Shown: positions 2,320 through 24,535 of the stretch, piece after piece
Position numbering within the stretch: position 1 is the first letter of the stretch
Layout of the letters: each line of letters starts with the position of its first letter
Assembly (NCBI RefSeq): GCF_030297015.1
Contig: NZ_AP028056.1
Span: 1,436,939-1,500,938, forward strand
DNA: 64,000 nucleotides
From: Brooklawnia propionicigenes
GTDB lineage: Bacteria > Actinomycetota > Actinomycetes > Propionibacteriales > Propionibacteriaceae
Direction: 5' to 3'
The notes under the pieces: generated by a model
Seen by the model: only the letters and a program-made list of their open reading frames with translations
Told to the model about the DNA's origin: nothing
Database searches by the model: none
Translations under genes and position numbers: made by a program

Positions 2320-2347
2320 GGTGGCCTCCTTCGCCTCGAAAGGATCG

Positions 2348-2647: not shown

Positions 2648-2712
2648 GGCAGGTAGGTGCGCAGCACCTCCCAAAACGCGGACGACCGAACCGAATTACT
2701 GCCCGCCAGACA

Positions 2713-2778: not shown

Positions 2779-2788
2779 TGAGGCCAGA

Positions 2789-3394: not shown

Positions 3395-3430
3395 CCCAGC
3401 CACTCCTCACTCGACGGCCCCGCCAGTCGC

Positions 3431-3497: not shown

Positions 3498-3603
3498 AGT
3501 AGCAACAAGCGAAACTGACGAGCGTGACGACCGGGGAGGAGCGGTACTCTGCTCGCGGTCTGCGTGTTCCCGGCGGCGTGTCAGTGGGCCCAGATACGAT
3601 GGG

Positions 3604-6044: not shown

Positions 6045-6062
6045 GCATCGAACGAGGAAACA

Positions 6063-7961: not shown

Positions 7962-7982
7962 GAAGTCATCCCGCTCGACCGG

Positions 7983-8255: not shown

Positions 8256-8518
8256 TGCGCCCACCAGAAGATCGCTGTTCAAACCCTCGACGTTCTCGGT
8301 CTGAGTCCTGCCTTCCGCTCAGTCTTGTTCGCGACGGAGGGCAAGGGCATGAACTTCGGGGTTGAGGAACACGTCGAATGGCGGTCCGGCTTGACCGTGG
8401 AGATCGTCTTCGCTGGAGAGGGTGATCTTCTCGAAGCGGGTTCAAGCGGCGCTCGCCAAGTGTCGTTCAATGATCGGCCTTGTATCTCGAGCAGAAGGTG
8501 ACGATGGGAGCTTGATTG

Positions 8519-9262
8519 ATGAACGACGATGTGGAAGCGGGAAGCGGCGAGTATCGGCCGGGGCAGTCGGTGTTCCCGCACCATGCATTGCTGCGATCTG
8601 CCGGGGCGAGCGACATCGCAATAACAGAGAGTGACGCGCAGTACCGGGCACTTGGCAGGGTTCACTACGAGTTTTCCCGGCTGATTTGGTGGCTTCGGTT
8701 TTACGTGCGGCATCGAATCGATCTGAAGATCGGTGGAGAAGGCCCTTTCGTTGCCGAACGCAGGGTTCTCAAGTCGCTGATCTCCGATACAGCTGGAAGA
8801 TCCGTGACTAGCGTATTTGAACTGTGTGCTGAACTGTTCGCGCATAGCAACGAAGACATGGCGATTGCAGAGCGCTTGCGGGCTGAGTTCAAGTCAATCA
8901 ACCAGAGAAGGAATCACCTTACGCATGGAGACGTTTTACTGGCGTTCGGAGTTCCCGAGGAGTGGCGATCTTCACCGCAGTCGGCGACGGAGCCCCCTCT
9001 CCAGATGAGCGTTAGCCGAACCGGGGTGGATGGTGACATCAACCTCATTGAGTCACTGAGTTCAGCCGTAGGGCTTGAAGGCTTCGCAAACGAGGTGACC
9101 TTCCACCGGAAGCGGTCGACGGAGTACGTCAGAACGTGCCTCTTATTGGCACCTCTCAATTTTGGCGCTGAACGACCCTCACAAATTCTCCACATTCGCA
9201 ACGAGCGTGTCGAGCGAATCATACCGTACGCACCTGATCGTGAGGTAATGATCTTGCCGTAG
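8519..9262 (+). CDS. HEPN-motif hypothetical protein
   Basis: 247 residues, mostly helical. It contains RRNHLTHG, giving the R-x4-H signature of HEPN ribonucleases (R131 to H136) inside a helical region that includes FELCAELFAHS and AIAERLRAEFKSINQ. HEPN proteins often cut RNA as toxins or abortive-infection effectors. The base composition is visibly less GC-rich than the flanking core genes, in keeping with horizontal transfer. ATG 8519 was chosen because GGGAG lies 8 bp upstream. No antitoxin-like partner is adjacent on the same strand. The domain call is from the motif only, and other short HEPN-like folds are non-catalytic. Confidence 0.55.
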   Translation: MNDDVEAGSGEYRPGQSVFPHHALLRSAGASDIAITESDAQYRALGRVHYEFSRLIWWLRFYVRHRIDLKIGGEGPFVAERRVLKSLISDTAGRSVTSVFELCAELFAHSNEDMAIAERLRAEFKSINQRRNHLTHGDVLLAFGVPEEWRSSPQSATEPPLQMSVSRTGVDGDINLIESLSSAVGLEGFANEVTFHRKRSTEYVRTCLLLAPLNFGAERPSQILHIRNERVERIIPYAPDREVMILP

Positions 9263-10047
9263 GCGGGAGAGCCTATTTCGAACATTGCAGGTAACGCTGA
9301 TGAAGCTTTGCTGCGCGCAGCTCCGGAGACCAGATGCGGTATGCGTTGTCACTACGGTGCACGGGCACCCCAGCGGTGTAGGCGACGAGCAGCTCACGGC
9401 GATTCGAGGCGCTCAAACGGGTTTGAGACTGACGCGTTTCCTCCACGACCGGACCACGCTGATCCACCCTCCGAGCCTGCTCAGGACGCCGCCCGCGGGG
9501 CTTCGAGCCTCGGAGAACACGGGAAATCAGCGTTCCGAGCGGCCTACTCCGGTTTGAGAAGCACCTACGGAGGTCCACTGTCGTCACAAGGCTCGAACCC
9601 TTTGCCAACGGAGACGGTGGTAACGGAGACGGTGGTATAGGTGCGAACATCGGTGACCGGACCATGAGTTGGATATCGTTCACCTCCTTGAGGCAAGCCA
9701 AGCGGCTTCGTCGAGCATGTCAAGTGTGCCCCGAACCGGACGCCATTGCTCGACCGCGCCGGCGTCATCCACGGCGCGCTGGCCACACCCGAACTGGCCT
9801 TCACCTCCCCCGGGCCTCGTCGAGTTGGAGGTCTTCGACGCCGCCCACACCCTCGCCGTGAAATACCAACCCCGGCCCTGGCAGAACGCAGTGACCACCT
9901 GGCTCCGATGCAAGTCTCACACTTGATAGCGCGAGCGGAGCCTCCATCTCGTTCGGCCACGCCCGGAGAAACCCAACTCAAGCCGTACCTCCGCCGGTAA
10001 CATCGTGTGTGTTGGCCTGCCCGGGCCATTGAGCGAGGAGGACCAAC
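9263..10047. other. Gene-poor scar with recombinase debris
   Basis: No intact gene is apparent over 785 bp. On the minus strand around 9380-9480 a short stretch (RLSASNRRELLVAYTAGVPVHR) resembles the HTH tail of a resolvase. At 9591-9601 the minus strand reads GGGTTCGAGCC, identical to 11 bases of a tRNA T-arm, and the frame over it ends GKGFEPC, a form often made by antisense tRNA at integrase ends. On the plus strand at 9820-9905 a short stretch (VELEVFDAAHTLAVKY) looks protein-like but has no start. I read it as a junction between two acquired segments. Confidence 0.5.
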
Positions 10048-10248
10048 GTGGCTGAGCCTTGGCTGTCTGCCGACGACATCGCCGCCCACCTCGGGGTCAC
10101 CAAAGACACCGTCTACACGTGGATCGCCGAGAAGGCCATGCCCGCCCACAAGGTCGGACGCCTCTGGAAGTTCCAAGCCAGCGAGATCGACGACTGGGTG
10201 CGACGAGGTGACGCTGCCGCCGACTCCGAACCCTCCCCGCCCGGGTGA
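10048..10248 (+). CDS. Excisionase-family helix-turn-helix protein
   Basis: 66 residues with a MerR/Xis-type winged HTH covering nearly the whole chain: WLSADDIAAHLGVTKDTVYTW, then KVGRLWKFQASEIDDWV. The GTG start is preceded by GAGGAGG at a spacing of 7. Proteins of this size act as DNA-bending recombination directionality factors or small repressors. It lies 89 bp upstream of the helicase that begins the defence operon and in the same direction, so a role as the operon's regulator is at least as likely as one in excision of the island. Confidence 0.8.
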   Translation: MAEPWLSADDIAAHLGVTKDTVYTWIAEKAMPAHKVGRLWKFQASEIDDWVRRGDAAADSEPSPPG

Positions 10249-10337
10249 GTGCTTCGCTCTCTTCCAGGCGCCGCTGACACTTTGTCGGTGGTACCCCATA
10301 TCCTGATCCACTGCCCAAAACCGGAAGGAGGCACGTC

Positions 10338-13300
10338 GTGACAGAAGCGACGACCGACGCGACATTGACACTCGCGACGCTTCGTGCGGGCCAGCGCCTC
10401 CGTGGCCTGGTGCCCGGGCAGACGGTCACCCTGATTGCCATCGATCCCATCGACGCCGGACTATTCGAGGTCTTCTACCGCGACGACTCCGGTCGCAGCG
10501 GCGCACGCGCGATCACCGACGCCGACGCGGCACGCTTCGAGGTCGCGGGCGACCTCGACTCCGCTCCCGCCTACGATGCCGACCCGGACGAGTTCCGGCT
10601 CGCGGCTGAGGCGTTGCGGATCAAGTACGCGGCGCTGTATGACCCGATGGTCGCGGTCAACAGCTCGGACGTTGACCCCCTGCCGCACCAGATTCGCGCC
10701 GTCTACGAGGAACTGCTACCACGTATCCCGCTGCGCTTCCTGCTGGCCGACGACCCCGGCGCAGGCAAGACGATCATGGCCGGGCTCTATCTGAAGGAGC
10801 TGATCCTGCGCTCGGACTGCGAGCGAGCAATCATCGTCGCTCCCGGCGGGCTCGTGGAGCAGTGGCGCGAGGAACTCAGCCAGAAGTTCGACCTGCGCTT
10901 CGAAATCTTCAGCCGTCAGATGGTCGATGACGCCGAGGGTCGCAACGTCTTCGCTGACCACCCGCTCCTGATCGCCCGCATGGACCAGCTCTCCCGTAGT
11001 GAAGACCTGACCGAGCAGCTCGGCGAGGTCACCTGGGATGTCGCCGTCGTTGACGAGGCCCACCGCATGTCGGCCCACTACTCGTCCTGGGCGGGCGAGG
11101 TCGATGAGACCAAGCGCTTCAAGCTCGGACGCCTACTGTCGGAGACCGCGCACAACTTCCTGCTGATGACGGCGACCCCGCACGCGGGCAAGGAAGAGGA
11201 CTTCCAGCTGTTCATGTCGCTGCTGGATCGCGACCGCTTCGAGGGCCAGTACCGGCAGGGCGTGCACCGGACCGATACCCACGGGCTGATGCGCCGCATG
11301 GTGAAGGAAGACCTGCTCACCTTCGAGGGCAAGCCGCTGTTCCCCGAACGCAAGGCCTACACCGTCGAGTACGAGCTGAGCCCGGCCGAGCGGGACCTCT
11401 ACGAACAAGTCACTGACTACGTCCGCACCGAGATGGGTAGGGCCGAACGGATCGCCCAGGCCGGTGACAAGAAGCGCGGCAACAACGTCGGGTTCGCGCT
11501 CACCGTGCTGCAACGCCGTCTGGCTTCCAGCCCGGAAGCGATCCTGCGCTCTCTGGAACGACGCCAGCAGCGCCTCGACACGAAACTGCGCGACATGCAG
11601 CGCATCATCACCGACGACGCACGCTTCAGCACCTCTACCTCCTCGCACATCGACGAGTGGTCCACAGGCAAGACCCCGCTCGACTTCGGAAGCGACGCAC
11701 TACCCGCGTTGTCGGTCGATGACTTCGAGGACTTCGACGAGGAAACGACCGACGAGGAGCGCGCGCAGTTCGAGAACCAGGTTGACCAGGTCGTTGATCT
11801 CGCCACCGCGGCGCAGACCATTCCTGAGCTGCGTGCGGAGATCGCGATCCTCGAAGACCTCGTGCGCACTGCGCGGCGTGTGCGTCTTCAGGATCATGAC
11901 AAGAAGTGGGTGGAGCTGCGCACGATCCTCGATGAGCAGTTGCTGGCGAAGGACGGTTCGGGTACTCCGCGCAAGATCATCATCTTCACCGAGCACCGCG
12001 ACACTCTGGACTACCTTCAGCAGAAGATCGCCGCGCAGCTAGGCCGGGCCGACTCGGTGATCACGATCCACGGGGGGACTCGCCGTGAGGATCGTAAGGT
12101 CGCCCGCGAGCGCTTCACCCACAACCCCGACACCGTGGTGTTGCTCGCTACGGACGCAGCCGGTGAAGGGCTGAACCTTCAGCGCGCCCACCTGATGGTG
12201 AACTACGACCTGCCCTGGAACCCGAACCGCATCGAGCAGCGTTTCGGCCGCATCCACCGCATCGGCCAGCGCGAGGTCTGCCACCTGTGGAACATGGTCG
12301 CCCGAGACACTCGCGAGGGCGACGTGTTCACTCGGCTGCTGGCGAAGATCGACCAGATGTCGATCGCCTACAACGGCAACCTGTTCAACGTCCTCGGCGA
12401 TGCTGACGCCTTCCAAGAGCGCTCGCTGCGCGACCTCCTGATCGAGGCAATCCGCTACGGCGACCAACCCCAGACCAAGGCCAAGCTCGACCGCATCATC
12501 GACGCCAGCGTCTCCCACGGCCTCGACGAGATGCTCGGCGAGCGCGCACTCCACCCCGAAATGTTCTCCGCACTCAACCTCAACGAAGTCCGGGCACGAA
12601 TGGAGAAGGCCCGCGAACGCCGACTCCAGCCCGGCTACATCGCCGCATTCTTTATTCCTGCGTTCGAGCGACTTGGCGGGCGCATCCGTAAGCGCGAGAA
12701 GGGACGCTATGAGATCACCCGTGTCCCGGCCCGCGTGATCGACACCGCGCGTCGCCTCAACCGGTGGGCGCCCGTTGCTGAGCAGTACGAGCGCATCACC
12801 TTCGAACTCTCACGGATGCACCCCGACGGTCTCGCCGACGCCTCCCTCATCGCACCGGGTCACCCGCTGCTGCACGCCGTGATCGAGGCAACCATCGACG
12901 ACCTCGGCCCGACCCTCAAGCAAGGCACGGTGCTGGTCGATCGGCGCACCAAGCAGACAGATGCGCCGATGCTGATGTTCAGCGTCGAGCAGCGCATCGA
13001 GAACACCGCAGCCGACGCTGACACCGTCTCCCACCACTTCGACTACCCACTCCTTGAACAAGACGGCACCGTCACAGTCTCCGCAGCACCGCCCTACCTC
13101 GACTACGACCGACCCGACTCGACCGAGACCGAAGCCGTGGCTGAGATCGCGGGCGGCGACTGGGCACGGCAGAACCACGAGAAGCTCGTGCGTGCCTGGG
13201 CCTATCGCGAAGGGCTCCAGCCCCGCATGGACGAGATCAAGACCCGCCTCGACATCGAGTCCGCTCGGACCCGCGCGCAGGTGAAGGATCGCCTGCTCGC

Positions 13301-13943
13301 AGAGATCAACCACTGGGACCGCGAACACAACCGACTCGAAGCCCTCGAACGAGGAGGCACCGTCGGCAGGCTCCGCGCCGAGACCGCACTCGTACGTGCC
13401 CGACAGCTCGATGAACGCCTGAACCACCGGCTCGAACAGCTCGACGAGGCCACCAACCTTGTCGCTGTACCCGCCGTCATCCGCGGCGCCGCCCTCGTCA
13501 TTCCCAGTGCTCTCCTCGTAGCTGACGTCGAGCCTGAAGCGCAGACCTTCGCCCGCCAGACCGCGGAAGTCGAGCGACGAGCAGTCGAAGCCGTGCTCGC
13601 CGCCGAGCGAGCACTCGGACGCGAACCCGTCGAGATGCCGCGCAACAACCCCGGCTACGACATCCAGTCCACTGACCAGAGCGGCTTCGTCCACTACATC
13701 GAGGTCAAGGGCCGCATCGAAGGCTCCGACACCTTCACCATCACCACCAACGAGATCACGTTCGCCCAGACCCAAGGCGACCGGCACCGACTCGCCCTGG
13801 TCGAGGTCTCAACCAGCGGTGCCGCCAGCGATCAGTTGCGCTACGTGAGCAACGCCTTCACCCACCTGGAGCCATCCGCGACCACCCGTTCCTATAACGA
13901 GGTCTGGCGCGACTACTGGGAACGCGGAGGGCCACCGCGATGA
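10338..13943 (+). CDS. SNF2-like DEAD/DEAH helicase with C-terminal DUF3883
   Basis: 1201 residues. A superfamily 2 helicase core includes ADDPGAGKTIMAG (Walker A, about 137-149), IIVAPGGLVEQW, VVDEAHRMS and MTATPH, followed by a long insert. The C-terminal lobe has IIFTEHRDTLDYL, LATDAAGEGLNLQ and RFGRIHRIGQ (motif VI). After a coiled-coil region, residues about 1090-1180 form a DUF3883 domain (NNPGYDIQS ... YIEVKGR), a nuclease-like fold with conserved D and ExK. It probably translocates on DNA as the motor of the defence system. The GTG start follows GGAGG. The stop overlaps the methyltransferase ATG by 4 bp (ATGA), marking the start of a co-translated operon. Confidence 0.9.
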   Translation: MTEATTDATLTLATLRAGQRLRGLVPGQTVTLIAIDPIDAGLFEVFYRDDSGRSGARAITDADAARFEVAGDLDSAPAYDADPDEFRLAAEALRIKYAALYDPMVAVNSSDVDPLPHQIRAVYEELLPRIPLRFLLADDPGAGKTIMAGLYLKELILRSDCERAIIVAPGGLVEQWREELSQKFDLRFEIFSRQMVDDAEGRNVFADHPLLIARMDQLSRSEDLTEQLGEVTWDVAVVDEAHRMSAHYSSWAGEVDETKRFKLGRLLSETAHNFLLMTATPHAGKEEDFQLFMSLLDRDRFEGQYRQGVHRTDTHGLMRRMVKEDLLTFEGKPLFPERKAYTVEYELSPAERDLYEQVTDYVRTEMGRAERIAQAGDKKRGNNVGFALTVLQRRLASSPEAILRSLERRQQRLDTKLRDMQRIITDDARFSTSTSSHIDEWSTGKTPLDFGSDALPALSVDDFEDFDEETTDEERAQFENQVDQVVDLATAAQTIPELRAEIAILEDLVRTARRVRLQDHDKKWVELRTILDEQLLAKDGSGTPRKIIIFTEHRDTLDYLQQKIAAQLGRADSVITIHGGTRREDRKVARERFTHNPDTVVLLATDAAGEGLNLQRAHLMVNYDLPWNPNRIEQRFGRIHRIGQREVCHLWNMVARDTREGDVFTRLLAKIDQMSIAYNGNLFNVLGDADAFQERSLRDLLIEAIRYGDQPQTKAKLDRIIDASVSHGLDEMLGERALHPEMFSALNLNEVRARMEKARERRLQPGYIAAFFIPAFERLGGRIRKREKGRYEITRVPARVIDTARRLNRWAPVAEQYERITFELSRMHPDGLADASLIAPGHPLLHAVIEATIDDLGPTLKQGTVLVDRRTKQTDAPMLMFSVEQRIENTAADADTVSHHFDYPLLEQDGTVTVSAAPPYLDYDRPDSTETEAVAEIAGGDWARQNHEKLVRAWAYREGLQPRMDEIKTRLDIESARTRAQVKDRLLAEINHWDREHNRLEALERGGTVGRLRAETALVRARQLDERLNHRLEQLDEATNLVAVPAVIRGAALVIPSALLVADVEPEAQTFARQTAEVERRAVEAVLAAERALGREPVEMPRNNPGYDIQSTDQSGFVHYIEVKGRIEGSDTFTITTNEITFAQTQGDRHRLALVEVSTSGAASDQLRYVSNAFTHLEPSATTRSYNEVWRDYWERGGPPR

Positions 13944-16771
13944 CCCACCACACCGACACCAACCAGCCCATTGCCAGCGAGAGAAGCACAGTGACCGACG
14001 CACCCAAGAAGAAGCTCATCGAAGTCTCGCTGCCACTCGAAGCAATCAACGCGGAGGCATCGCGTGAGAAGTCGATCCGGCACGGGCACCCCTCGACACT
14101 GCACCTGTACTGGGCGCGTCGGCCGCTCGCAGCAGCGCGCGCAGTTCTCTTCGCTCAACTCGTCGATGACCCGTCATCACGCCCTGACGAGTTCCCGACT
14201 GTCGAGGCTCAGGATGCTGAGCGCGCACGACTCCATGCGTTGCTGGAGAAGCTCGTTGTCTGGGAGAACAGCAACGACGAGGCCCTCCTACGGCAGGCGC
14301 GCGAGGAGATTCGCAAGAGCAACAACGGTGACTTGCCCGCTGTGCTTGATCCCTTCGCCGGCGGTGGAGCAATCCCGCTCGAAGCGCAGCGCCTCGGCCT
14401 TGAGGCGCATGCCAGCGATCTCAACCCGCTGGCTGTACTAATCAACAAGGCGTTGATTGAGATTCCCCCCAAGTTCCGTGACCGAGCACCGGTCTTTCCG
14501 AAGGCCGCAGGAACCAGAAACGCTTGGCAGTTCGCAGAAGGAATGGCGGAAGATGTCCGCGCCTACGGAGAGTGGATGCGCGATGAAGCCCAAAGACGAA
14601 TCGGCGACTTGTATCCGAAGGTCGTCGCGCCCGGTGGCACCGAACACACCGTAATCGCTTGGATATGGGCGAGGACGGTGAGAAGCCCCAACCCAGCGAA
14701 TCCGATCGAAGTGCCTCTCGTCAAGTCTTGGTGGCTCAGCAAGAAGAAGGGCAAGGAGGCGTGGGTCTACGCCAGTGTCGTCAACGGAAGCGTTCAGTAT
14801 GAAGTCCGGCATGATCCTCACGGACCCCAGGGGGACGCAGATGGCACTGTGGGACGCAAGGGAGGATTCGCTGTTGGGGACGGCACCCCAATGTCGTTGA
14901 ACTACATTCGCGAAGAAGGCCGCGCGGGACGCATGGGCGCACAACTCATCGCGGTTGTTGCGGAGACACCTCGCAGTCGCCTCTACGTATCTGCTTCGCC
15001 TCTTCAGTCGGAAGCTGCGACCGTGGCGCGCCCAGAGAACGTGCCCGATGGAAAGATCGGTTACTATCCCCGCGACATCAAGACCCAGACGTACGGGATG
15101 ACCGAGTGGGCGGATTTGTTCACCAATCGCCAGTTGGTCGCGCTCACCACACTGAGTGACCTCGTCGCGGAGGCACGGGAGCGTGTGCTCCGAGACGCTG
15201 TTGTCGCGGGGCTCATGCCCGGCCCAAGTCTTGAGGACGGGGGTACCGGTGCGGAAGCGTACGCGGATGCCGTTGCCACGTATCTCGCGCTGGGAGTTAG
15301 TCGCACGACTGACTACTCCTCGAACCTCTGCAGCTGGCACAACACTGGGGAGAAGATGCGTAATGTCTTCGGTCGACAAGCAATTCCGATGGCCTGGGAC
15401 TATACGGAAAGCAACCCGTTCTCATCATCGTCAGGGAACTTCCTGGGCCAAGTCGAGTGGGTAGCAAAAGCTCTCGCTAAGTCTCCGCACTCGGGCGCCG
15501 GCATCGCCACGCAAGCCGACGCCGCAGCAAGGCAATACTCCGGATTCGTAATCTCTACCGACCCGCCGTACTACGACAACATCGGTTACTCGGATCTTTC
15601 TGACTTCTTCTACGTCTGGCTCCGTCGAACGCTTGGCACCATACAACCAAAAGCTGTCGCAACGCTTCAGACACCAAAGATGGAGGAACTGGTCGCGAAC
15701 CCATACCGCCACGATGGCAGGTCGGGAGCCGAGAGGTTCTTCATCGATGGGTTCAACGCGGTCTTCGCGAAAGTCCGCGAAGGAGCCAACTCCAGCGTGC
15801 CACTCACCGTTTATTACGCCTACAAACAGCAGGACGCGAGCGGCGAAGGCACGAGCTCTACTGGTTGGCACACGCTGCTAGGTGGGCTGATTGAGGCGGG
15901 ATGGGAGATCACCGCTACTTGGCCGATGCGCAGCGAGATGTCCAGCCGGATGATGTCCCAGGCGAAGAACGCACTCGCGTCGTCGATCGTTCTCGCTTGT
16001 CGTCCCCGACCTCTCGACGCACCCGCGACAACCCGACGAGCGTTTGTGGCGACACTCAAACAAGAGTTGCCCGTGGCGCTGCGCACGCTGATGCAAGGTG
16101 CAATCGCACCGGTCGATCTTGCGCAGGCGGCTATCGGACCAGGCATCTCTGTGTTCTCCCGCTATTCCCGGGTTCGTGAGGCCGATGGCTCGGACATGAC
16201 GGTTCGAGACGCACTACTGCTAGTGAACGCGACTCTTGATGAGGTCATCGGAGAGCAAGAGTCGGACTTCGATTCCGACACTCGGTTCGCGGTGAAGTGG
16301 TATCGGCAGTACGGCTGGGGCCAAGATACCGCCGGCATCGCGGATCAACTTGCACGCTCCTCGGACACCTCGATCGGCGCACTGGAACGAGGTGGCATCT
16401 TCGAAGCGAAGGGTGGGAAGGCCCGTCTGCTCCCGCCCGCCCAGCTTGAGGGAGCTTGGGACGCAGCAGCCGATGAGCGAGTCAGCGTCTGGGAAGCGAC
16501 AGTCCGCTTGGCCGCCGTGATGGCCAAGGATGGCGCCGACAAGGTGGCGGAGTTGCTGCCGTCGGTGCAGACGCGTGTGAACCTGGATGCGGTGAAGGAG
16601 TTGGGCTTCCTGTTGTTCCACGAGGCCGAGAAGAAGAAGGACACGAAGGACGCGATCCTCTTCAACGGTCTGGTGAGTGCATGGGGTGACGTGAACGAAC
16701 AGGCGCGCAAGTACGCCTCGACGCCGCGCTCGTCACAGCAGGCGTTCGACTTCGACGAGGACGAGGATTAG
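13940..16771 (+). CDS. DUF1156 adenine-specific DNA methyltransferase
   Basis: 943 residues. The N-terminal DUF1156 signature is KSIRHGHPSTLHLYWARRPLAAARA in pieces at about 45-70. SAM motif I is DPFAGGGAIPLEAQRLG (about 135-150), followed by SDLNPLA. Catalytic motif IV is DPPYYDN at about 541-547. This is the COG1743-type methylase repeatedly found in defence islands beside DUF499 ATPases, and it presumably marks host DNA as self. An internal GTG at 13991 could give a shorter form. The spacing of 3 bp to the next gene implies co-transcription. The methylated sequence is unknown and no separate specificity subunit is seen, so the target domain is probably built in. Confidence 0.9.
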   Translation: MTHHTDTNQPIASERSTVTDAPKKKLIEVSLPLEAINAEASREKSIRHGHPSTLHLYWARRPLAAARAVLFAQLVDDPSSRPDEFPTVEAQDAERARLHALLEKLVVWENSNDEALLRQAREEIRKSNNGDLPAVLDPFAGGGAIPLEAQRLGLEAHASDLNPLAVLINKALIEIPPKFRDRAPVFPKAAGTRNAWQFAEGMAEDVRAYGEWMRDEAQRRIGDLYPKVVAPGGTEHTVIAWIWARTVRSPNPANPIEVPLVKSWWLSKKKGKEAWVYASVVNGSVQYEVRHDPHGPQGDADGTVGRKGGFAVGDGTPMSLNYIREEGRAGRMGAQLIAVVAETPRSRLYVSASPLQSEAATVARPENVPDGKIGYYPRDIKTQTYGMTEWADLFTNRQLVALTTLSDLVAEARERVLRDAVVAGLMPGPSLEDGGTGAEAYADAVATYLALGVSRTTDYSSNLCSWHNTGEKMRNVFGRQAIPMAWDYTESNPFSSSSGNFLGQVEWVAKALAKSPHSGAGIATQADAAARQYSGFVISTDPPYYDNIGYSDLSDFFYVWLRRTLGTIQPKAVATLQTPKMEELVANPYRHDGRSGAERFFIDGFNAVFAKVREGANSSVPLTVYYAYKQQDASGEGTSSTGWHTLLGGLIEAGWEITATWPMRSEMSSRMMSQAKNALASSIVLACRPRPLDAPATTRRAFVATLKQELPVALRTLMQGAIAPVDLAQAAIGPGISVFSRYSRVREADGSDMTVRDALLLVNATLDEVIGEQESDFDSDTRFAVKWYRQYGWGQDTAGIADQLARSSDTSIGALERGGIFEAKGGKARLLPPAQLEGAWDAAADERVSVWEATVRLAAVMAKDGADKVAELLPSVQTRVNLDAVKELGFLLFHEAEKKKDTKDAILFNGLVSAWGDVNEQARKYASTPRSSQQAFDFDEDED

Positions 16772-16774
16772 GTC

Positions 16775-17893
16775 ATGCCCGGAAAGCGAGATCAAGCGCA
16801 GAGCCGCGGCGCAGCCGCGCGCCGCTCTGGCGCGGACCTGACTCCGTTCCGGGCCATCGCAGAGTCGGTCAGCACCTCGGGTGGTGAGCTCGTCGATCAG
16901 GTGTCGGCTCTGATTGAGCAGGCGCAGGCGTTCGCGGCCACTCAGGTGGACGCGACGCTCACTCTCCGGAACTGGTACATCGGGCGGATGATCGACGTGG
17001 CCGTGCTGCGTGAGGGCCGCGCGGGACACGATCAGGAACTTGTTGCCTCACTGGGGCAACAACTGACCTCCAGGTACGGACGCGGCTTTGACCGGACCAA
17101 CCTCTACCGGATGGTGCGGTTCTCTCAGCAGTTCGCCGAGCCCGAACTTGTTGCCTCACTGGGGCAACAAGTGAGCTGGACCCACTTCAAGGCGCTACTG
17201 CCGTTGGCGAACGCGGAGGCGCGAGCGTTCTACGTGAAGGAGACCATCGACCGCCGACTCAGCGTTCGTGAGCTACAGCACGCCATCGAACGCAAGGCGT
17301 TCGAGCGTCGCGAGATTGCCGACTCCCAGATTCCCGAAGGATCAGCCGTCCCGCTCGATGCCTTCCGCGACCCGATGCTGTTGGACATGCTGGGCCTGGC
17401 CGACACCTACTTGGAGCGCGACCTCGAATCAGCACTGGTCCACGACATGGAGGCGTTCCTGCTGGAGGTCGGGCGCGGGTGGGCGTTCGTCGAACGCCAG
17501 AAGCGCATGGTCTTCGATGGAGACGACTACCACCTCGACCTACTGTTCTACTCCCGCCCGCTGCGTCGCTTGATCGCCGTGGAACTCAAGGTCGGGAAGT
17601 TCAAGCCGAGCTACCAAGGGCAGATGAACTTCTACCTGAAGTGGCTGGACCGGCACGAACGCCAGGCCGACGAGAACCCTCCCATCGGCCTCATCCTGTG
17701 CACTACGGCGAGCCGTGACCAGATCGAGCTGCTCGAACTACACAAGGACGGCATCGTCGTCGCCGAGTACTGGACGACCCTCCCGCCCAAGGCGGAGCTC
17801 CAAGCCCGCATCCAGGCGGTCTACCGGGAGGCACAGGAGCGGATCGCCCGGAGGCAGCTCACCGCAGCGGCGGATGAAGACTTTGACGAGTAG
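16775..17893 (+). CDS. YhcG/DUF1016 family PD-(D/E)XK nuclease
   Basis: 372 residues. The N-terminal DUF1016 winged-helix-like region (about 35-180: TLRNWYIGRMI, YGRGFDRTNLYRMVRFSQQF, SWTHFKALL) is followed by the C-terminal nuclease domain, with D255 in YHLDLLFYS and E270-L-K272 in IAVELKVGKF as the catalytic set, then YQGQMNFYLKWLD. Two copies of ELVASLGQQ (88-96 and 124-132) are encoded by identical 27-nt palindromic DNA. The first looks inserted before TSRYG, while the second lies at the conserved position before SWTHF. The gene is third in the operon. It likely supplies DNA cleavage or degradation. Confidence 0.9.
   Translation: MPGKRDQAQSRGAAARRSGADLTPFRAIAESVSTSGGELVDQVSALIEQAQAFAATQVDATLTLRNWYIGRMIDVAVLREGRAGHDQELVASLGQQLTSRYGRGFDRTNLYRMVRFSQQFAEPELVASLGQQVSWTHFKALLPLANAEARAFYVKETIDRRLSVRELQHAIERKAFERREIADSQIPEGSAVPLDAFRDPMLLDMLGLADTYLERDLESALVHDMEAFLLEVGRGWAFVERQKRMVFDGDDYHLDLLFYSRPLRRLIAVELKVGKFKPSYQGQMNFYLKWLDRHERQADENPPIGLILCTTASRDQIELLELHKDGIVVAEYWTTLPPKAELQARIQAVYREAQERIARRQLTAAADEDFDE
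17036..17170 (+). repeat. Two 27-nt palindromic repeats inside the YhcG-type gene
   Basis: Copies at 17036-17062 and 17144-17170 are identical over 27 nt and each contains TTGTTGCC/GGCAACAA, an 8-bp perfect inverted repeat with a 7-nt loop. The spacing is 108 nt, a multiple of three, so both are read in frame as ELVASLGQQ. The unit resembles a mobile palindromic element tolerated inside a gene. Confidence 0.9.
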
Positions 17894-17953
17894 AGATTGG
17901 CCGGCGCTGGGTGCAGCCTCGTCGGCAGCGAGTAGTGAGTTCTAGGAGACACG

Positions 17954-20900
17954 ATGGCGATGAACAACCGAGATCGAGTGGGCAAGGCGTTCGACTTGCT
18001 CTCCGAAGGGCTCCTGGACGAGGTCGATGAGGTCATGACGCGGGCCTACAAGACCGCCGACTGGCCGGCCGCGTGGGCGAAGGAGGATGCCCAGCGTCGG
18101 GGCGGGCCGCTGCGCACGCTGACCAAGCATGACGTGCAGGTCCAGCTCCGCGCGATCACGGAGCAGGGCTACCACTTCAAGGACGTGCTCTCCCGCGCCC
18201 AGCAGGGCTTCGCGTCCGAGCTGCGCGAGACCCGGAACCTGTGGGCACACAACGAGCCCTTCTCCTCCGACGACGCATCACGCGCGCTGGACACGATCGA
18301 GCGTCTGCTACACGCGGTCGGCGCGGTCGATTCCGCCGAAGATGTACGGAAGCTGCGTGTCGATCTCCAGCGCACGGTGTTCGAGGATCAGACCCGCAAG
18401 CAGGTCAAGCGCACGAAGGTGTCGCTCGAACCTGGCTCCGGGCTGCGCCCGTGGCGTGAGGTGATCCGTCCCCACGATGACGTGGCGCGCGGCGCGTTCA
18501 CCGCATCGGAGTTCGCGGCCGACCTGCACCTGGTTCACACCGGTCAGGCGACGAGCCCGGAGTACGGCGATCCGGTCGAGTTCTTCACCCGCACCTACCT
18601 CACCGAGGGTTTGCGCGACCTGCTGTCGCGGGCGCTGCGGCGCCTGAACGGCGAGGCCGGGGCGAGCCCGGTGGTAAACCTTCAGACCAACTTCGGTGGC
18701 GGCAAGACCCACTCGATGCTGGCCCTGTACCACCTCTTCAGCGGCACTCCAGTCAAGGACTTCCCGCAGGAGCTTCAGGAACTCATCGCCGCGAACGGCA
18801 ACCCCGATCTCGGCGCACTCGATGTGCGACGGGTGGCGCTCGTCGGCACCTACCTGAAGGCCGGGTCGCCGCTCATCAAGGACGACGGTACCGAGGTTCG
18901 CACGCTCTGGGGTGAACTCGCCTGGCAGCTCGGCGGGCGTGAAGCCTACGACCTGATCGCCGAGGACGACCGCGCCGGCACCAACCCCGGTGAGGCGCTG
19001 CGCACCCTGATCGTGCGCTACTCGCCGTCGCTGATCCTGATCGACGAGTGGGTGGCCTACGCACGCCAGCTCGTCACGGACAAGGAACTGCCCTCGGGTT
19101 CGTTCGAGACGCAGTTCACCTTCGCGCAGTCTCTGACCGAGATCGTGCGCTCGGTGCCGGGCGTGATGCTCGTGGTCTCGATCCCGGCCTCCGACACTGG
19201 CACCGAGGGACGCGGGAGTGACATTGAGATCGGTGGCGCAAACGGCCAGCTCGCGCTCGAACGCCTCCAGAACGTGATCCGTCGCGTCGCCGATCAGTGG
19301 CGGCCGTCGAGCAAGGACGAGTCGTTCGAGATCGTCAGGCGCCGGCTGTTCCAGGCACCGAACGCCGACGGCCTTACGACCATCTCCGCCGTGGCGCGCA
19401 GCTTCACGAACCTGTACCGCAACAACACCGCACTGTTCCCGCGCGATGCAGCGTCGCCGAACGACGACTACGAGAAGCGCATCCGCGCCTCGTACCCGTT
19501 GCATCCCGAGCTGCTGGATCGTCTGTATGAGGACTGGTCGACGCTGGAGCGGTTCCAGCGCACCCGTGGCGTGCTGAAGCTCGTCTCGTCAATCGTGCAC
19601 GAGTTGTGGGCATCGAACGACGCCTCGCCGCTGATCCTGCCCGGCAACGTGCCGCTCGATGCAACGACCGTGAACACGGACCTGACGCAGTACCTCGAAG
19701 ATCAGTGGAAACCGATCATCGACTCCGACATCGACGGCCCAGGCTCGACCGCGCAGCAGATCGACCTCGACCGCCCCAACCTCGGCCAGCGGTTCGTCAC
19801 CCAGCGCATCGCCCGGACGATCTTCATGGGCGCAGCACCTCGGATCAAGAGCAGCCGTAAGGGTCTCGACAAGCAGTACCTCTGGCTCGGCACCGCAGTT
19901 CCCGGTGACACTCTCGGGAACTTCGGCAGTGCCGTCGAACTGCTCGCGCAGCGCTCGACCTACTTCTACGAGGAGCAGGGCCACTACTGGTTCGACACCC
20001 AGCCCTCGGTCACGAAGACTGCGAACGACTACGCCGAGCGTCTCCGTGAGGATGTCGAGACGGTGTGGAACGAGATCACCCGCCGCCTCCAAGGAGAGGA
20101 GCGCGTGCGCGGTGTGTTCGACCGGGTCCACATCGCGCCATCGTCGTCCGCCGACATCCCCGACCTTGAAGACACGCGCCTGGTGATCGCGCACCCGCGG
20201 CACGCCCGTCGCAAGCAGGACGGCGCCGACTCGGCCGCGCATGCGTGGGTCCGTGACGCTATCGAGAGCAAGGGTGCCAGCCAGCGCATCCATCGCAACA
20301 CGCTGATCTTCCTCCTCGCCGACAAGAGCGAGTTGGAGAGCCTCGAAGCCGCAACCCGCAGCTACCTCGGCTGGAAGCGAGTCCAGGCCACCAGCGACAG
20401 CCTCAACCTGTCTGCGCAACAGCGCAAGCAGACCGACGACTGGGTCTCCCGGCTCGATCAGACCGTCTCCGACCGCATCCGCGACACCTTCGTCTGGGCG
20501 GTTTACCCCGAGCAGTTCGACCCGACCAAGCCGTTCGAGCTGGTCGCCGACAGAGTGCCCGATTCCGGCGGACGCTCGCTGGCCGAGCGCGTCAGCGCCA
20601 AACTCGGGCGCGAGGATCAGCTCGTCACCGACTTCGGCGCACCGATCCTCGGGGCCACGCTGCATCACGAGCTCGGCGCTCTCTGGCGCGACGCTGGCGA
20701 GATCACCGTTGGAGAATTGTGGGGCTATTTCACCCGCTACACCTATCTGCCTCGCCTCGTCCGACGCGAGGTGCTCGACGGCGCCATCGAACAGTCGCTC
20801 TCGGCTGTGCTCGTTGACAACGAGCGGTTCGCCATCGCGTCAGGCAAGGATGCCGAGACTGGCCGCTACCGCGGCCTCCTCGTCGCGCCAAACCCGAACA

Positions 20901-21355
20901 CCCGGATTCAGGTCACCGACAGCACCCTGCTCATCGATACCGAGCGCGCCCAGAAGCAGGTCGATGCAGACCGGATCGCGGCCGCACGGGAAGCATCCGC
21001 AAGCGCTGCAACGGCGGATAGCGACTCGGCCAGTGTCGGTCCGGTTGACTTCGTGTGGACGGGCAGTTCGTCCGTGGAGGGAGGCGAGCAGTCAGAGGCC
21101 GAGTCCGCGCTGAAGGCAGTGCTCGCCAGGTTCTTCGGATCGGTGAAAATCGACTCCGACCGCTACGCGCGCGACATCGGCAACGTGACCCGCGAAGTGA
21201 TCGACCGCCTTGCCGGCGCGGGCGCCCGGCTCGACATCACCATCGACATCCAGGCCACCAAGCCCGAAGGCTTCGACGAGTCCGAGGTCCGCACGATCGG
21301 CGAGAACGCACGCGTCCTCAAGTTCGACCCCAGCTCCGGCTTCGAGAAGAGCTGA
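17954..21355 (+). CDS. DUF499 AAA-type ATPase with N-terminal Swt1-type HEPN domain
   Basis: 1133 residues. Positions about 1-125 form a Swt1-like HEPN domain with RNLWAHN (R94-x4-H99). Then a DUF499 ATPase: FFTRTYLTEGL, Walker A NFGGGKTHSM (246-255), Walker B LILIDEWVAYA, and a long C-terminal region with DUF499-type repeats plus an acidic linker near 1015-1060. It is the usual partner of DUF1156 methylases and is presumed to be an energy-dependent controller or nuclease-recruiting factor. ATG 17954 follows GGAGACACG. The 60-bp gap to the previous gene is the largest inside the operon. RNase activity of the HEPN part is suggested by the motif but not proven. Confidence 0.87.
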   Translation: MAMNNRDRVGKAFDLLSEGLLDEVDEVMTRAYKTADWPAAWAKEDAQRRGGPLRTLTKHDVQVQLRAITEQGYHFKDVLSRAQQGFASELRETRNLWAHNEPFSSDDASRALDTIERLLHAVGAVDSAEDVRKLRVDLQRTVFEDQTRKQVKRTKVSLEPGSGLRPWREVIRPHDDVARGAFTASEFAADLHLVHTGQATSPEYGDPVEFFTRTYLTEGLRDLLSRALRRLNGEAGASPVVNLQTNFGGGKTHSMLALYHLFSGTPVKDFPQELQELIAANGNPDLGALDVRRVALVGTYLKAGSPLIKDDGTEVRTLWGELAWQLGGREAYDLIAEDDRAGTNPGEALRTLIVRYSPSLILIDEWVAYARQLVTDKELPSGSFETQFTFAQSLTEIVRSVPGVMLVVSIPASDTGTEGRGSDIEIGGANGQLALERLQNVIRRVADQWRPSSKDESFEIVRRRLFQAPNADGLTTISAVARSFTNLYRNNTALFPRDAASPNDDYEKRIRASYPLHPELLDRLYEDWSTLERFQRTRGVLKLVSSIVHELWASNDASPLILPGNVPLDATTVNTDLTQYLEDQWKPIIDSDIDGPGSTAQQIDLDRPNLGQRFVTQRIARTIFMGAAPRIKSSRKGLDKQYLWLGTAVPGDTLGNFGSAVELLAQRSTYFYEEQGHYWFDTQPSVTKTANDYAERLREDVETVWNEITRRLQGEERVRGVFDRVHIAPSSSADIPDLEDTRLVIAHPRHARRKQDGADSAAHAWVRDAIESKGASQRIHRNTLIFLLADKSELESLEAATRSYLGWKRVQATSDSLNLSAQQRKQTDDWVSRLDQTVSDRIRDTFVWAVYPEQFDPTKPFELVADRVPDSGGRSLAERVSAKLGREDQLVTDFGAPILGATLHHELGALWRDAGEITVGELWGYFTRYTYLPRLVRREVLDGAIEQSLSAVLVDNERFAIASGKDAETGRYRGLLVAPNPNTRIQVTDSTLLIDTERAQKQVDADRIAAAREASASAATADSDSASVGPVDFVWTGSSSVEGGEQSEAESALKAVLARFFGSVKIDSDRYARDIGNVTREVIDRLAGAGARLDITIDIQATKPEGFDESEVRTIGENARVLKFDPSSGFEKS

Positions 21356-21363
21356 GGGCACCG

Positions 21364-22755
21364 GTGGCTCGATTCGGAAACGATCAGACGAACATCGGTC
21401 GCCTCGATGTCCGCACGGTGGACGAAGGCGGTCGAGTTGAGGCCTTCTTCATTCCGACCGAGCCACCACATGAAGAGTCCTCGGCACACCGGCGCTTGGC
21501 TGAAGGTGTGAAGCTCGTGGAGTTCGACGCTGCAACGGGCATCCTGCAGATTCACCCCATCAACACACTCTCAACCCACAGCGAGTACCTTGGCCCGAAG
21601 TACGAACAGGTGCAGACGCTTTCCCTGGAAACCTCTTTGCTGGATGAGTATTTCGAGGGCTCCGACTTGGAGTCAATCTTTGAGACGCTACCGCCCGGAT
21701 TCGTCAAGGACTTCGCCTACGGCCTCGGGTTACTCAAGGACTGCAACCGGCTGATTCGGTTGATCGAGACCAACACTCCCTGCACAGAGATCATCTTCAC
21801 CGACGGCAACAGTGCCGCCATCAGCGGATCAGGGTTCCACCTCGGCCTATCGCGCTTCGCTGCGATCTGGGCCGAGATCGGTCGGATCAATGACCGGGGA
21901 AATCGTGCGGCGGGTCGAGTGAAGGACGTATTCGTACACAACAACCTCGCCGCGACGCTTGGTCTCGCCAGCGCAGAGTTCTCGCTTGGGCGACACCCGG
22001 ACTCGCGCGTGATCGCGAAGGCCGCCGACGGGATCGAAGAACTCAGTAGCGTTGAACGTGATGCTCTGGTCGAAGCGGTCGCGTCCGAGTCGGCAGCGAT
22101 AGCAGCAGGATCGCCCCAGAAGTTTCAGCAGCTCAAGCGAGACATCGAGCTCGTCAGCCTTGACCGCCTCATCGAGGCGTACGTCGAGGCCTTGGAACAG
22201 GGCAAGGCCGAGCCGTACTGGCAAGCCTTCTTCGATGACAACGCCTTCGCGCTGCAACAGGTCTTCGGAGCCCCGATGGTCAGTGTGCGCTCCGGAGCGA
22301 CGGTAGGCGGTCGCGGCCTGTCGGGAAGCGGCGACAAGATCGCGGACTACCTGTTCAAGAACTCGCTCACGAACAACGTCGCCCTGGTGGAGATCAAGAA
22401 GCCGACGACGCAGTTGCTAGAGGCACGTGAGTACCGCCAGGGTGTGTTCGGTCCTTCGAAGGAGCTCAACGGTGCGGTCTCCCAGGTGCTCGATCAGGCG
22501 TACAACCTGACAAAGAACCTCACTGGCCTGAAGGAGAGCTCGCGTCAATGGGACTTGGAGTCCTACGCAGTCTCCTGCTTCGTCGTTGCCGGGCGCACAC
22601 CGTCTGCCAGCGATCCGGCAAGACAGAAGTCGTTCGAGTTGTATCGTGCGAACTCTCGCAGCGTGACCATCGTGACCTACGACGAGATTCTTGAACGACT
22701 AAGACTCCTTCGCAACTTCCTCACACCGGCGTTACCCGCAGCCGAGGATGTCTGA
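21364..22755 (+). CDS. Shedu family nuclease (SduA, DUF4263)
   Basis: 463 residues. The C-terminal DUF4263 domain (about 255-440) is well marked: WQAFFDDNAFALQQVFG, SGDKIADYLFKN, VALVEIKKPTTQLL (E-x-K of the PD-(D/E)XK fold), YRQGVFGPSKELNGAVSQVLDQ, then SCFVVAGRTP. The N-terminal part differs from one Shedu to another and probably senses the trigger. Shedu alone is a known one-gene anti-phage system; here it is embedded in a methyltransferase/ATPase operon. GTG 21364 follows GAGGGCACC and lies 8 bp after the DUF499 stop. The 3' end overlaps the start of the next gene (ATGTCTGA). Confidence 0.88.
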   Translation: MARFGNDQTNIGRLDVRTVDEGGRVEAFFIPTEPPHEESSAHRRLAEGVKLVEFDAATGILQIHPINTLSTHSEYLGPKYEQVQTLSLETSLLDEYFEGSDLESIFETLPPGFVKDFAYGLGLLKDCNRLIRLIETNTPCTEIIFTDGNSAAISGSGFHLGLSRFAAIWAEIGRINDRGNRAAGRVKDVFVHNNLAATLGLASAEFSLGRHPDSRVIAKAADGIEELSSVERDALVEAVASESAAIAAGSPQKFQQLKRDIELVSLDRLIEAYVEALEQGKAEPYWQAFFDDNAFALQQVFGAPMVSVRSGATVGGRGLSGSGDKIADYLFKNSLTNNVALVEIKKPTTQLLEAREYRQGVFGPSKELNGAVSQVLDQAYNLTKNLTGLKESSRQWDLESYAVSCFVVAGRTPSASDPARQKSFELYRANSRSVTIVTYDEILERLRLLRNFLTPALPAAEDV

Positions 22756-23813
22756 TCGAGATGGCACGTCCACCCGCGTGGAGGCACCGCTCGACGAGGC
22801 TCGGCGACAGGCGCTTGTCGCGATCGACTCCCGGTGATCGACGCAGCTTCAGCGACTTCATCGTCCACATCCATCTCGCGTGGCAGAACCTGCTTCACGC
22901 TGACCGGATGCGCCGAAAGGCTGAAATCTTCTACCGTGAGTCAGGCGGTCGGCGCCTCTTCAAGCGAAACCCCGACGGCTCGAAGAAGACCTGGGACCTG
23001 AGCCAGTGCCTCAGGCACGAGTTCAAGGACAACGACCCGATCAGGGCCAACGTCGAGTTCGTCGTTGGGCTGCGCAATCACGTCGAACACCGCTTCCAGG
23101 ACTCGGTCTTGGTTGCTACAGCCGCACAGGCACACGCCTGCATCATCAACTTCGAGGCGGAACTCGTACGCAGGTTCGGCTCCCGCGAGACGCTGGGTTC
23201 GGAACTGAAGTTCCCCGTCTTCGTGCAGTCGCTCAGCCCTTCGAGGTACGAGGAACAACACAACCTCCGACGCGGACTGCCGACCACGGTTTCTACCTTC
23301 ATCACTGAGTTCCAAGCCGGTCTTCCCGACGAGGTGCGCAGTGACGAGCGATTCGCCTACCGACTCCTGCTGCTTCGGATGAAGGGACCAAAGACGGAGG
23401 CAGACCTCGCGCTCAACTTCGTGCGACAGGAAGACCTCAGCGAGAAGGAACTTCAGGCGCTCCTCGGGCAGGAAGGCAGCGTGATCGTTGCCGAGAAGTA
23501 CCGCGAAGCAGTGCATGGCGATGAGATGTTGCCTAAGGCGGCTGCGGCTGCGGTGGAGCAGCGCATTCCGTTCAAGTTCAGAGTCAACGACTTCACCGCC
23601 ATCCGGAAGGCGTGGCAGATCGGCCCGGCCAAGAGTGGTGACAAGGAGCAGTTGCCGAAGTCGGACGGCTACTGCGTCTACTCGCCCGCGTTCAAGCAGT
23701 TCGTCTACCGGCCGAAACTCGTCGAGCGGATAGTCGGAGCGATCGATACTGCCGAGAAGTACCAAGCCATACTTGGCCGGTCACCAACGTTGAAGGGGAC
23801 GGACGGAGGCTGA
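22748..23813 (+). pseudogene. DUF3644 protein with apparent 5' frameshift
   Basis: The main reading frame (open from an ATG at 22761, 350 codons) encodes a DUF3644-type protein: SFSDFIVHIHLAWQNLLHA, then GLRNHVEHR with a HEPN-like R-x4-H (R105-H110 of that frame), later FKQFVYRPKLVERIV. Its first 28 residues are Arg-rich and look like out-of-frame DNA. Another frame begins at ATG 22748, overlaps the Shedu stop by 8 bp, and reads MSDRDGTSTRVEAPLDEARR-QALVAID, which fits the expected family N-terminus, but ends at TGA 22835. A one-base change near 22830 would join the two. Either the gene is broken, the read is wrong, or the shorter start is used. Confidence 0.7.
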
Positions 23814-24076
23814 GCGGGCACCCACAAGATCGAGTGCCCGTGCGGAGTGCAGTGGCAAGACTCCGTTGCCGAGCGCAGTGACTTGCTGGTTCTGAGTCAG
23901 GTCGCTGGCATCGGTGACCCATCCAGTCTGCAAGCCCATCAGCCACTCCACGAACGCGGTGCTGGGCGGGGGCCGTCGGCATCGTTCAGGAGGGCAGTGG
24001 CGCTGGCGCCGGGCGTCCGGTGATGTGTTCCCAGCGGGCGATGGCGTCGGCGTAGCGTCCCCAGCGCTGAACAGCC
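23781..24076 (-). pseudogene. Decayed C-terminal piece of a phage-type cytosine-C5 DNA methyltransferase
   Basis: On the minus strand one frame reads RYADAIARWEHITGRPAPAP and stops near 23990. The next frame continues with STAFVEWLMGLQTGWVTD and QVTALGNGVLPLHSARAL, where ALGNGV is the conserved motif X of C5 methylases and FVEWLMGL a typical target-recognition neighbour. The two halves are in different frames, and motifs I and IV are absent, so this is a frameshifted relic of a longer gene. It sits between the defence operon and the core genes and marks the decayed right flank of the island. Confidence 0.65.
23814..23840 (+). terminator. Possible operon terminator hairpin
   Basis: Directly at the stop of the DUF3644 gene the DNA forms a 7-bp stem CGGGCAC/GTGCCCG with a 12-nt loop. 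No T-run follows, so termination is only suggested by position at the end of the operon. Confidence 0.3.
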
Positions 24077-24301
24077 CGTCGATTAGGGACCACAGGGTCT
24101 CCGACTCGGCTCTCCTCTTCGGCGAGCCAGCCTGTCCGTGGAGGGCGAAGTCGATGATCTGGAGAGACAGTGCGATTGTCCCTCGTCTCGCTCGCAGGTG
24201 GTCGAACGTTCTCCCGCCGCGCGATGAGTCCGTCGCCAGTGCGGGGCGGAACAGTACGCCGGGCGAGGGGGAAGATGCGGAAGCGTTGGTGAGGAGCGCC
24301 G

Positions 24302-24535
24302 TCAAGGGAAGCCGGTAGGCCGATCCAGCGCGTCCAGCCGCAGGTCGGCCAGATCGCCGAGAACGGCGCCGGCCTTGTATAGGTCGAGTTGCGTTGTCGC
24401 GCAGATGCCAGCTTGCAGTCCGGGGTCCGACTCCACGCGGTAGAGGTTCTCGACTCCGTCGACGTTGTTGGGTTCGAAGAAGGCCGACGCCTTGACGGTG
24501 CCCAGGGATGTAGACAGCTCGGCGGTGGTTCGCAC
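24302..24535 (-). CDS. Hypothetical protein, probably 3'-truncated
   Basis: 77 codons from a GTG 7 bp after the D-2-hydroxyacid dehydrogenase stop: MRTTAELSTSLGTVKASAFF, EPNNVDGVENLYRVES, then QLDLYKAGAVLGDLADLRLD. The composition is natural for a real gene, but the chain is short and ends in a stretch that runs into the island border, so it may be the head of a longer protein cut by the insertion. The family is not recognised. It is likely co-transcribed with the dehydrogenase. Confidence 0.45.
   Translation of the reverse strand: MRTTAELSTSLGTVKASAFFEPNNVDGVENLYRVESDPGLQAGICATTQLDLYKAGAVLGDLADLRLDALDRPTGFP

Follow-up and report, generated by a model that had tools for sequence, protein, structure and literature searches.

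HmaB exchange and accessory-gene turnover around the core of an Hma operon in Brooklawnia propionicigenes

Gene content of the operon

A 64,000-nt stretch of the Brooklawnia propionicigenes contig NZ_AP028056.1 (the window, in whose positions all coordinates below are given) contains a defence operon of six genes, all on the plus strand at 10338-23813, with intergenic distances of -4 to 60 bp. Judged from their profile matches, hmaA, hmaB and hmaC are the core of the known Hma, or Type-1 BREX-Related (BR), system, BREX standing for bacteriophage exclusion, and the genes for YhcG, Shedu and a DUF3644 protein are add-ons. The first-pass annotation had the six gene identities, their order and the operon layout right, the PADLOC and Pfam matches being far beyond chance. 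Its composite operon is real as far as the genes go, but the core had gone unrecognised as a known system. Comparison with close relatives suggests that bacteria retain the machinery of this operon but swap the component that probably determines which DNA receives the self-mark.

The hmaA gene (10338..13943, +) encodes an SNF2-type helicase with a C-terminal PD-(D/E)XK domain (DUF3883/NOV_C), and matches the PADLOC HmaA model with E=0 and the Pfam families Helicase_C, SNF2 and NOV_C. The NOV_C domain, residues 1078-1160 (13569..13817, +), is identified by Pfam at 2e-19 together with a motif alignment and is predicted to be the main DNA-cutting domain. Walker A GAGKT, DEAH and the D..ExK of NOV_C are all conserved in an alignment of 14 HmaA sequences. 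The hmaB gene (13940..16771, +), overlapping hmaA by 4 bp, encodes a DUF1156 DNA methyltransferase (PADLOC HmaB E=0; DUF1156 5.9e-30), in which DPFxGGG and DPPY are invariant across 33 HmaB sequences. A DPPY motif points to N6-adenine methylation.

The yhcG gene (16775..17893, +) follows hmaB after a 3-bp gap and encodes a DUF1016_N and YhcG_C PD-(D/E)XK nuclease (PADLOC PDC-S02/YhcG 2e-109) whose D..ExK motif is intact in the alignment. After 60 bp comes hmaC (17954..21355, +), with an N-terminal Swt1-like HEPN domain and a DUF499 AAA+ ATPase (PADLOC HmaC 2e-263). The HEPN_Swt1 domain, residues 11-123 (17984..18322, +; Pfam 6.2e-31), is a predicted RNase, and R94 and H99 of its RxxxxH motif are invariant in 10 HmaC sequences. 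The Shedu nuclease gene sduA (21364..22755, +; PADLOC SduA 1.9e-152) has the Shedu hallmarks of an SduA_C domain in Pfam, an intact D..ExK and a match to the solved SduA 8ti8 at E=5e-32; it differs from Shedu as known in lying 8 bp after hmaC rather than alone. Its start was taken from the paralogue described below, since the mechanical open reading frame starting at 21055 overlaps hmaC. The last gene (22761..23813, +), 5 bp after sduA, encodes a HEPN-type DUF3644 protein (PADLOC PDC-S19/DUF3644 4e-77; Pfam DUF3644) with RxxxxH intact in the alignment. It is noted that this gene carries 1-bp and 11-bp deletions relative to its relatives, which jointly preserve the frame, and that 14 residues at its N-terminus replace 18 different residues of the relatives.

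The locus had been given a start of 10048. What begins there is not the helicase gene but a 66-aa HTH_17 gene of its own (10048..10248, +; Pfam HTH_17 1.8e-14), adjoining hmaA upstream, whose product is probably a regulator. The same gene precedes hmaA in five related loci (L038, L039, L041, L043 and L044; loci are referred to by such numbers), and an annotated helix-turn-helix (HTH) gene is at the equivalent position on plasmids L123-L125.

Relation to known defence systems

Hma was described by Payne 2021 (PMC8565338), where HmaB is labelled an m5C methylase; PMC12839542 points to N6-adenine for the DUF1156 methylase. The latter article (2026) re-describes Hma as a Type-1, DUF499-centred BR system, in which DUF499 is fused to HEPN, the helicase ends in a nuclease domain and auxiliary nucleases, Shedu among others, are numerous in or beside the systems; for antiphage activity of the helicase-nuclease it refers to a study of 2024. 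PMC3710099 (2013) had placed the HEPN-DUF499 ATPase in an operon with SNF2-DUF3883 and called DUF3883/NOV_C a restriction endonuclease domain, so that three DNA nucleases are predicted in the present operon rather than the two first counted.

HmaA, HmaB and HmaC occur here in one operon and on one strand, and all three fit their PADLOC models over near full length, as expected of Hma; the difference is that YhcG lies inside the core and Shedu and DUF3644 lie after it. As for Type-1 BR, Pfam identifies a DUF499 ATPase, HEPN-fused, a DUF1156 methylase and an SNF2 helicase, the predicted PD-(D/E)XK nuclease at the C-terminus of the helicase being NOV_C with its conserved motif, and DUF3780, the mark of Type-2, has no Pfam match in the six proteins. 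In Pfam, with profiles only, neither an N-terminal TUDOR on the helicase nor a C-terminal RRM on the ATPase was reported. The main text of PMC12839542 is without YhcG or DUF1016, and in the portions drawn on an exchange of the BR methylase is not reported.

DISARM, BREX and Dpd were rejected as assignments: the matches of HmaA to the models of DrmD, BrxH and DpdE are those of a related helicase and stay under the listed NCBIfam cut-offs. For DISARM, the DrmD cut-off is 610 and HmaA reaches 353, and drmB/DUF1998 is absent from the Pfam and PADLOC rows shown. In type I restriction-modification (R-M), HsdS is exchanged on a constant motor and nuclease. The operon is like type I R-M in pairing an exchangeable specificity part with a constant motor and nuclease, and differs from it in that a separate HsdS was not matched among the six proteins, recognition probably residing within the methylase itself. 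Type 1 BREX is similar in that the methylase reads the motif for marking and defence alike, PglX being the BREX specificity factor, bound by the phage inhibitor Ocr (PMC11341690), and in that BREX genes occupy the equivalent tRNA-Ala site of a same-species genome. It differs in that no PglZ, BrxA, BrxB or BrxL match was found in the window operon, PglZ being absent from the Pfam, NCBIfam and PADLOC rows shown for the six proteins. In these same rows the absence of DISARM and BREX marker genes, as originally stated, was borne out.

A second copy in the genome

On the single 3.21-Mb contig that makes up the window's genome, all six genes occur once more, complete and in the same order, at a distance of 486 kb. 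The block common to both copies spans 9808..24162 (86% by blastn over 14.4 kb), with the other copy at approximately 1932615-1946970 of that contig (G000:C1). Protein identity between the copies is 95% for HmaA, 91% for YhcG, 97% for HmaC, 97% for Shedu, 90-91% for DUF3644, and 75% for HmaB. The synonymous divergence (pS) is 0.19-0.37 per gene in the five genes other than hmaB, compared to 0.52-0.87 in each 50-codon window across codons 51-852 of hmaB, which indicates an older and separate history for the interior of hmaB.

Over 16.2 kb the second copy shares 99.6% identity with a locus of Tessaracoccus sp. SD287 (L043), and downstream of the copy lie IS21-type genes and a gene for a TrwC relaxase. 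Both this match and these neighbours make the second copy look mobile. Among the plasmid records searched, none contained 80% of the operon at a single site. We considered whether the second copy could be an assembly artefact, and this was ruled out by the single 3.2-Mb contig, the 86% DNA identity, the different flanks and the match to Tessaracoccus. In the first 300 codons of sduA (21364-22263), pS between the copies is 0.07-0.11 versus about 0.35 in the last part of the gene, possibly a trace of recent gene conversion. Two Hma loci are also found in Bifidobacterium colobi LC6 (L048, L054), there without the contrast in HmaB (HmaA 82%, HmaB 83%, HmaC 85%).

Exchange of HmaB between related operons

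The contrast between the two copies recurs among related operons. A pairwise comparison was made of 67 systems (2211 pairs), each with long enough HmaA, HmaB and HmaC; 9 repeats and L043, whose proteins are those of the second copy, had been dropped from this set, and the plasmid systems L124 and L125 added. In the 34 overlapping pairs with HmaC at least 90% identical, mean identities are 93.8% for HmaC, 92.3% for HmaA and 71.3% for HmaB, and HmaB is at least 10 points below both HmaA and HmaC in 30 of them. Mean HmaB identity remains at 68-71% in every HmaC class from 70 to 100%. At HmaC 40-50% (1350 pairs) the order is reversed (HmaB 51.3, HmaA 48.8, HmaC 45.5), which argues that HmaB is not simply fast-evolving. 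Fast evolution of HmaB was rejected for this reason, its average conservation in that class being the better, and also because the synonymous sites are near-saturated too.

Among the closest non-overlapping pairs (HmaC at least 75%), HmaB is clearly the lowest in 17 of 20. Of 22 pairs compared at synonymous sites, 19 have their highest core-gene pS in hmaB, and these include the whole set of 14 with HmaC at least 86%, L060/L071 excepted. In the other three pairs, hmaB shares the top value (L063/L166), does not hold it (L048/L054) or has the lowest value (L060/L071). The last pair is a mirror case, in which a common hmaB allele (about 91% DNA identity to codon ~660) is found inside more divergent operons. 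In approximately unbiased (AU) tests, HmaB rejects three clades present in the trees of HmaA and of HmaC: the two copies with L041 and L038 (p-AU 1e-11), L039 with L040 (p-AU 0.002) and L060 with L085 (p-AU 1e-5).

The clearest case is the pair L042/L146. HmaA and HmaC are 98% identical, and HmaB is 62.5% identical over the segment equivalent to window residues 280-545, with 98.6% and 97.5% identity in the residues flanking it. At the DNA level (90-base windows), the two loci are 91-100% identical around hmaB and at both of its ends, and 44-88% identical at codons ~295-565. The segment, at 14777..15574 (+) in the window, makes up most of what differs in this pair and is the predicted target-recognition insert of HmaB: it falls between the S-adenosylmethionine (SAM) motif and the DPPY motif, matching PMC12839542, where the target-recognition insert of the methylase is placed after core strand 2 and recognition domains in general are said to diverge fast. 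Searched with profiles against solved structures, HmaB found weak matches only, the best at E=0.03. In 13 of the 14 close pairs, region 280-540 is where HmaB is least identical; the window's own pair is the one that departs from this. The exchange thus includes, or is centred on, the candidate recognition segment, as would be expected of an exchangeable specificity subunit. Our search of the open-access literature, which took in few subscription papers or preprints, did not turn up a description of hmaB, or of a DUF1156 methylase, being exchanged.

The exchange of HmaB could also be an escape from phage proteins that bind and block it, with the DNA motif held constant. The binding of the BREX methylase PglX by the phage inhibitor Ocr (PMC11341690) offers a parallel, and an exchange that often spans the whole catalytic interior, beyond the insert, would be understandable in these terms. 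We nevertheless regard such an escape as improbable, in view of the insert being the least identical region in nearly all close pairs and of the change in L042/L146 being nearly confined to it. A further explanation is that hmaB merely recombines more easily with remote donors, without effect, its better average conservation at HmaC 40-50% easing such recombination. However, hmaA and hmaC flank hmaB, and yet synonymous divergence jumps in hmaB of close pairs; moreover, among the 14 close pairs the only one with most of HmaB retained is altered in the insert region alone. Neutral recombination is accordingly given little weight here.

Accessory slots between hmaB and hmaC and after hmaC

Relatives of HmaC were taken from species genomes (at least 592 stretches, of which 582 were confirmed), and the best 80 were compared. 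Two places in the operon receive accessory genes, the hmaB-hmaC gap (slot 1) and the region after hmaC (slot 2). The slot-1 census covers 63 loci with hmaB sequence upstream, and the slot-2 census 62 loci with at least 2.6 kb after hmaC. A further set was drawn from 45 genomes, of which 37 were used (the window's own genome and 7 weak or partial ones being dropped), giving 9 repeats and 28 new loci; these 28 were searched by tblastn with the window proteins only, bar some scanned proteins, and a remote Shedu may be missed in them.

Shedu follows hmaC in 2 of the 62 loci (L038, L043) and DUF3644 in 4 (L038, L040, L043, L102), while YhcG lies between hmaB and hmaC in 6 of the 63 (L037, L038, L041, L042, L043, L046). 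The hmaB-hmaC gap exceeds 300 bp in 24 of the 63. Scanning of 87 of the 135 slot proteins (the 48 omitted being mostly short or later genes, plus the frameshifted yhcG of L041) identified GmrSD_N in 13 of the 87. Further occupants seen in related loci are a KAP ATPase (L042), a TIR-like protein with SLATT (L039), ABC-3C (L044), an OLD-like ATPase (L041, L164, L151) and an OLD-like ATPase with a UvrD helicase (L141). The slot of L158 holds an Abi_2-like match slightly below the cut-off, and in L099 a Septu PtuA lies between hmaA and hmaB. In a sample of the phylum, HmaC is matched in 38 of 396 genomes; outside the window's genome no Shedu, DUF3644 or YhcG family was found on the HmaC contig, many of these assemblies being fragmented.

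The cleanest comparison is with Brevibacterium sp. CS2 (L041), in which HmaC is 97-99% identical and an OLD-like ATPase replaces Shedu and DUF3644. The DNA of this locus is similar from ~9810 onward and again past the operon. Judged from this gene content, the accessory genes are refillable occupants of two slots on a constant core, which accounts for the appearance of such loci as ever-different "composite systems".

The first-pass annotation had read the six genes as one system, in which YhcG, Shedu and DUF3644 would be obligate and would act together with the core. The tight gaps of 3-60 bp are consistent with such integration, and the block does travel intact, being present in both copies of the window's genome, in Tessaracoccus L043, with the proteins of the second copy, and in Actinomyces L038. 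Some pairings also recur, with DUF3644 after hmaC in L040 and, independently, in the Wirthbacteria locus L102 (25% identity), and with two Shedu genes in that position, again independently, in L155. Against this stand the low counts of Shedu, DUF3644 and YhcG among related loci and the OLD-like ATPase and frameshifted yhcG of L041. The draft genome of L037 (HmaC 96%) has no Shedu match, and in L159 the Shedu match stops after 117 bp, where the adjoining frames were read by eye as an IS3-type transposase. The window Shedu is matched in 2 of 10 near-relative genomes, with no match at all in the other 8. Relatives of it exist apart from Hma: a 58%-identical Shedu lies on a Rhodococcus plasmid with no defence gene listed alongside, in an incomplete gene table, and a 40%-identical one in a type I R-M operon. 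The near-absence of Shedu and DUF3644 from related operons is, besides, the outcome that the first-pass annotation had itself named as refuting its reading. A single obligate six-gene system is therefore unlikely.

More credible, though still tentative, is the idea that the genes for YhcG, Shedu and DUF3644 work in defence on their own and have just the island and transcription in common with Hma, which would be compatible with HmaB exchange. Relatives of the accessory genes do exist without Hma, and the island described below also has a BsuBI/PstI-type R-M system and a GmrSD_N gene. Independence leaves less room for the recurrence of accessory genes in two fixed places, on the strand of the core, often with gaps of a few bases and in different lineages.

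Two observations on relatives of the accessory proteins may be added. On the Arthrobacter plasmid L124, a gene with an SduA domain (327-1256, -) lies upstream of a plain HTH-Hma operon and is divergent from it. Elsewhere in the window's genome (L036, 7499-11210, -), a 189-aa DUF3644 protein, 74% identical to that of the window over its first 149 residues, adjoins a Res-type subunit with an RE_endonuc domain.

Proposed mechanism

We consider it likely, at a probability of roughly 0.7, that the locus is an Hma operon with HmaB as an interchangeable specificity subunit and two effector slots. This assignment to HmaB is drawn by likeness to HsdS exchange and to the PglX of BREX (PMC11341690). Gene content, the exchange of alleles, turnover in the slots and the presence of two copies are established by the sequences themselves; from these we infer the following complex assembly, order of action and back-up role. 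HmaB would methylate host DNA at sites picked by the insert between the SAM-binding motif and DPPY. HmaC, the HEPN-DUF499 ATPase, probably builds a scanning complex with HmaB, and HmaA, with its helicase and PD-(D/E)XK nuclease, would then translocate and cut DNA without the mark. YhcG, Shedu and DUF3644 may act as back-up effectors, two DNA nucleases and one RNase, when the core is blocked. Recombination replaces HmaB interiors, in one pair mainly the insert, and leaves hmaA, hmaC and the neighbours in place; if the exchange changes the recognised motif, a lineage would thereby change its self-mark and phage target with the machinery unchanged. For the way in which Hma or BR systems discriminate self from foreign DNA, the proposal published in PMC12839542 is that fast-evolving domains of the HmaC ATPase share in recognition. 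Natural operon pairs that differ mainly in one HmaB segment (L042/L146), or most in HmaB (the copies of the window's genome), point to HmaB.

Several points weigh against this reading, the published role for HmaC domains being one of them. Between the two copies, pS also rises to 0.51 in individual 100-codon windows of hmaA and hmaC. At HmaC 30-40% (98 pairs), HmaA is the best conserved, at 43.2 versus 41.2 for HmaB. Three of the 20 non-overlapping pairs do not have HmaB clearly lowest (L048/L054, L124/L125 and, by rounding, L092/L110), and the AU tests rest on quick trees. Most close pairs show nearly the whole HmaB interior exchanged, beyond the insert, and across 33 HmaB sequences the C-terminal end (residues 851-943) varies as much as the insert does (mean 0.43 vs 0.43-0.45). 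The two alleles of the window's genome are 66% identical at 280-540, the most alike of the 14 close pairs there, with their minimum of 64% at 131-279; these two alleles may share one motif. It should also be mentioned that the insert is assigned to target recognition from the positions of motifs and from a description in the literature, that the roles of YhcG, Shedu and DUF3644 in this operon are putative, and that the window's DUF3644 may be impaired as an effector by its two small deletions.

A more speculative extension, which we regard as possible but would not favour, is that the two operons of the window's genome form one combinatorial system, Hma being a platform that trades the HmaB insert as a cassette and has its two slots refilled independently. 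HmaA, HmaC and the effectors are 90-97% identical between the copies and could serve either HmaB, in which case one machinery would work with two self-marks at once.

The island and the tRNA-Ala site

The operon lies in an island adjoining a tRNA-Ala gene (701..24532). The right edge is near 24532; on the left, the value of 701 reflects a query that ended at 700. An exact direct repeat of 9-14 bases was sought between the tRNA-Ala region and the right edge and was not found. At the downstream edge, an approximate 3' remnant of a C5-cytosine methylase gene (23981..24410, -) is recognised by DNA homology to L043; the open reading frame at 23781-24305 that overlaps it has no Pfam match.

In another genome of the species, consisting of 50 contigs, HmaC is without a match. 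Beside the equivalent tRNA-Ala of that genome, about 26 kb of sequence matches BrxA, BrxB, BrxC, PglX, PglZ (from model position 153) and BrxL, and a CBASS cyclase and AbiEii are also present. Since two genomes of one species carry different defence genes at this tRNA-Ala site, the site (window 623-24532) is a defence hotspot. A serine recombinase gene at 634-2463, the frame of which ends inside the tRNA-Ala gene, probably encodes the island's integrase. Ahead of the Hma operon, at 3478-7961, lie a methylase gene (Eco57I/N6_Mtase match), a gene for a BsuBI/PstI-type restriction endonuclease and then the GmrSD_N gene.

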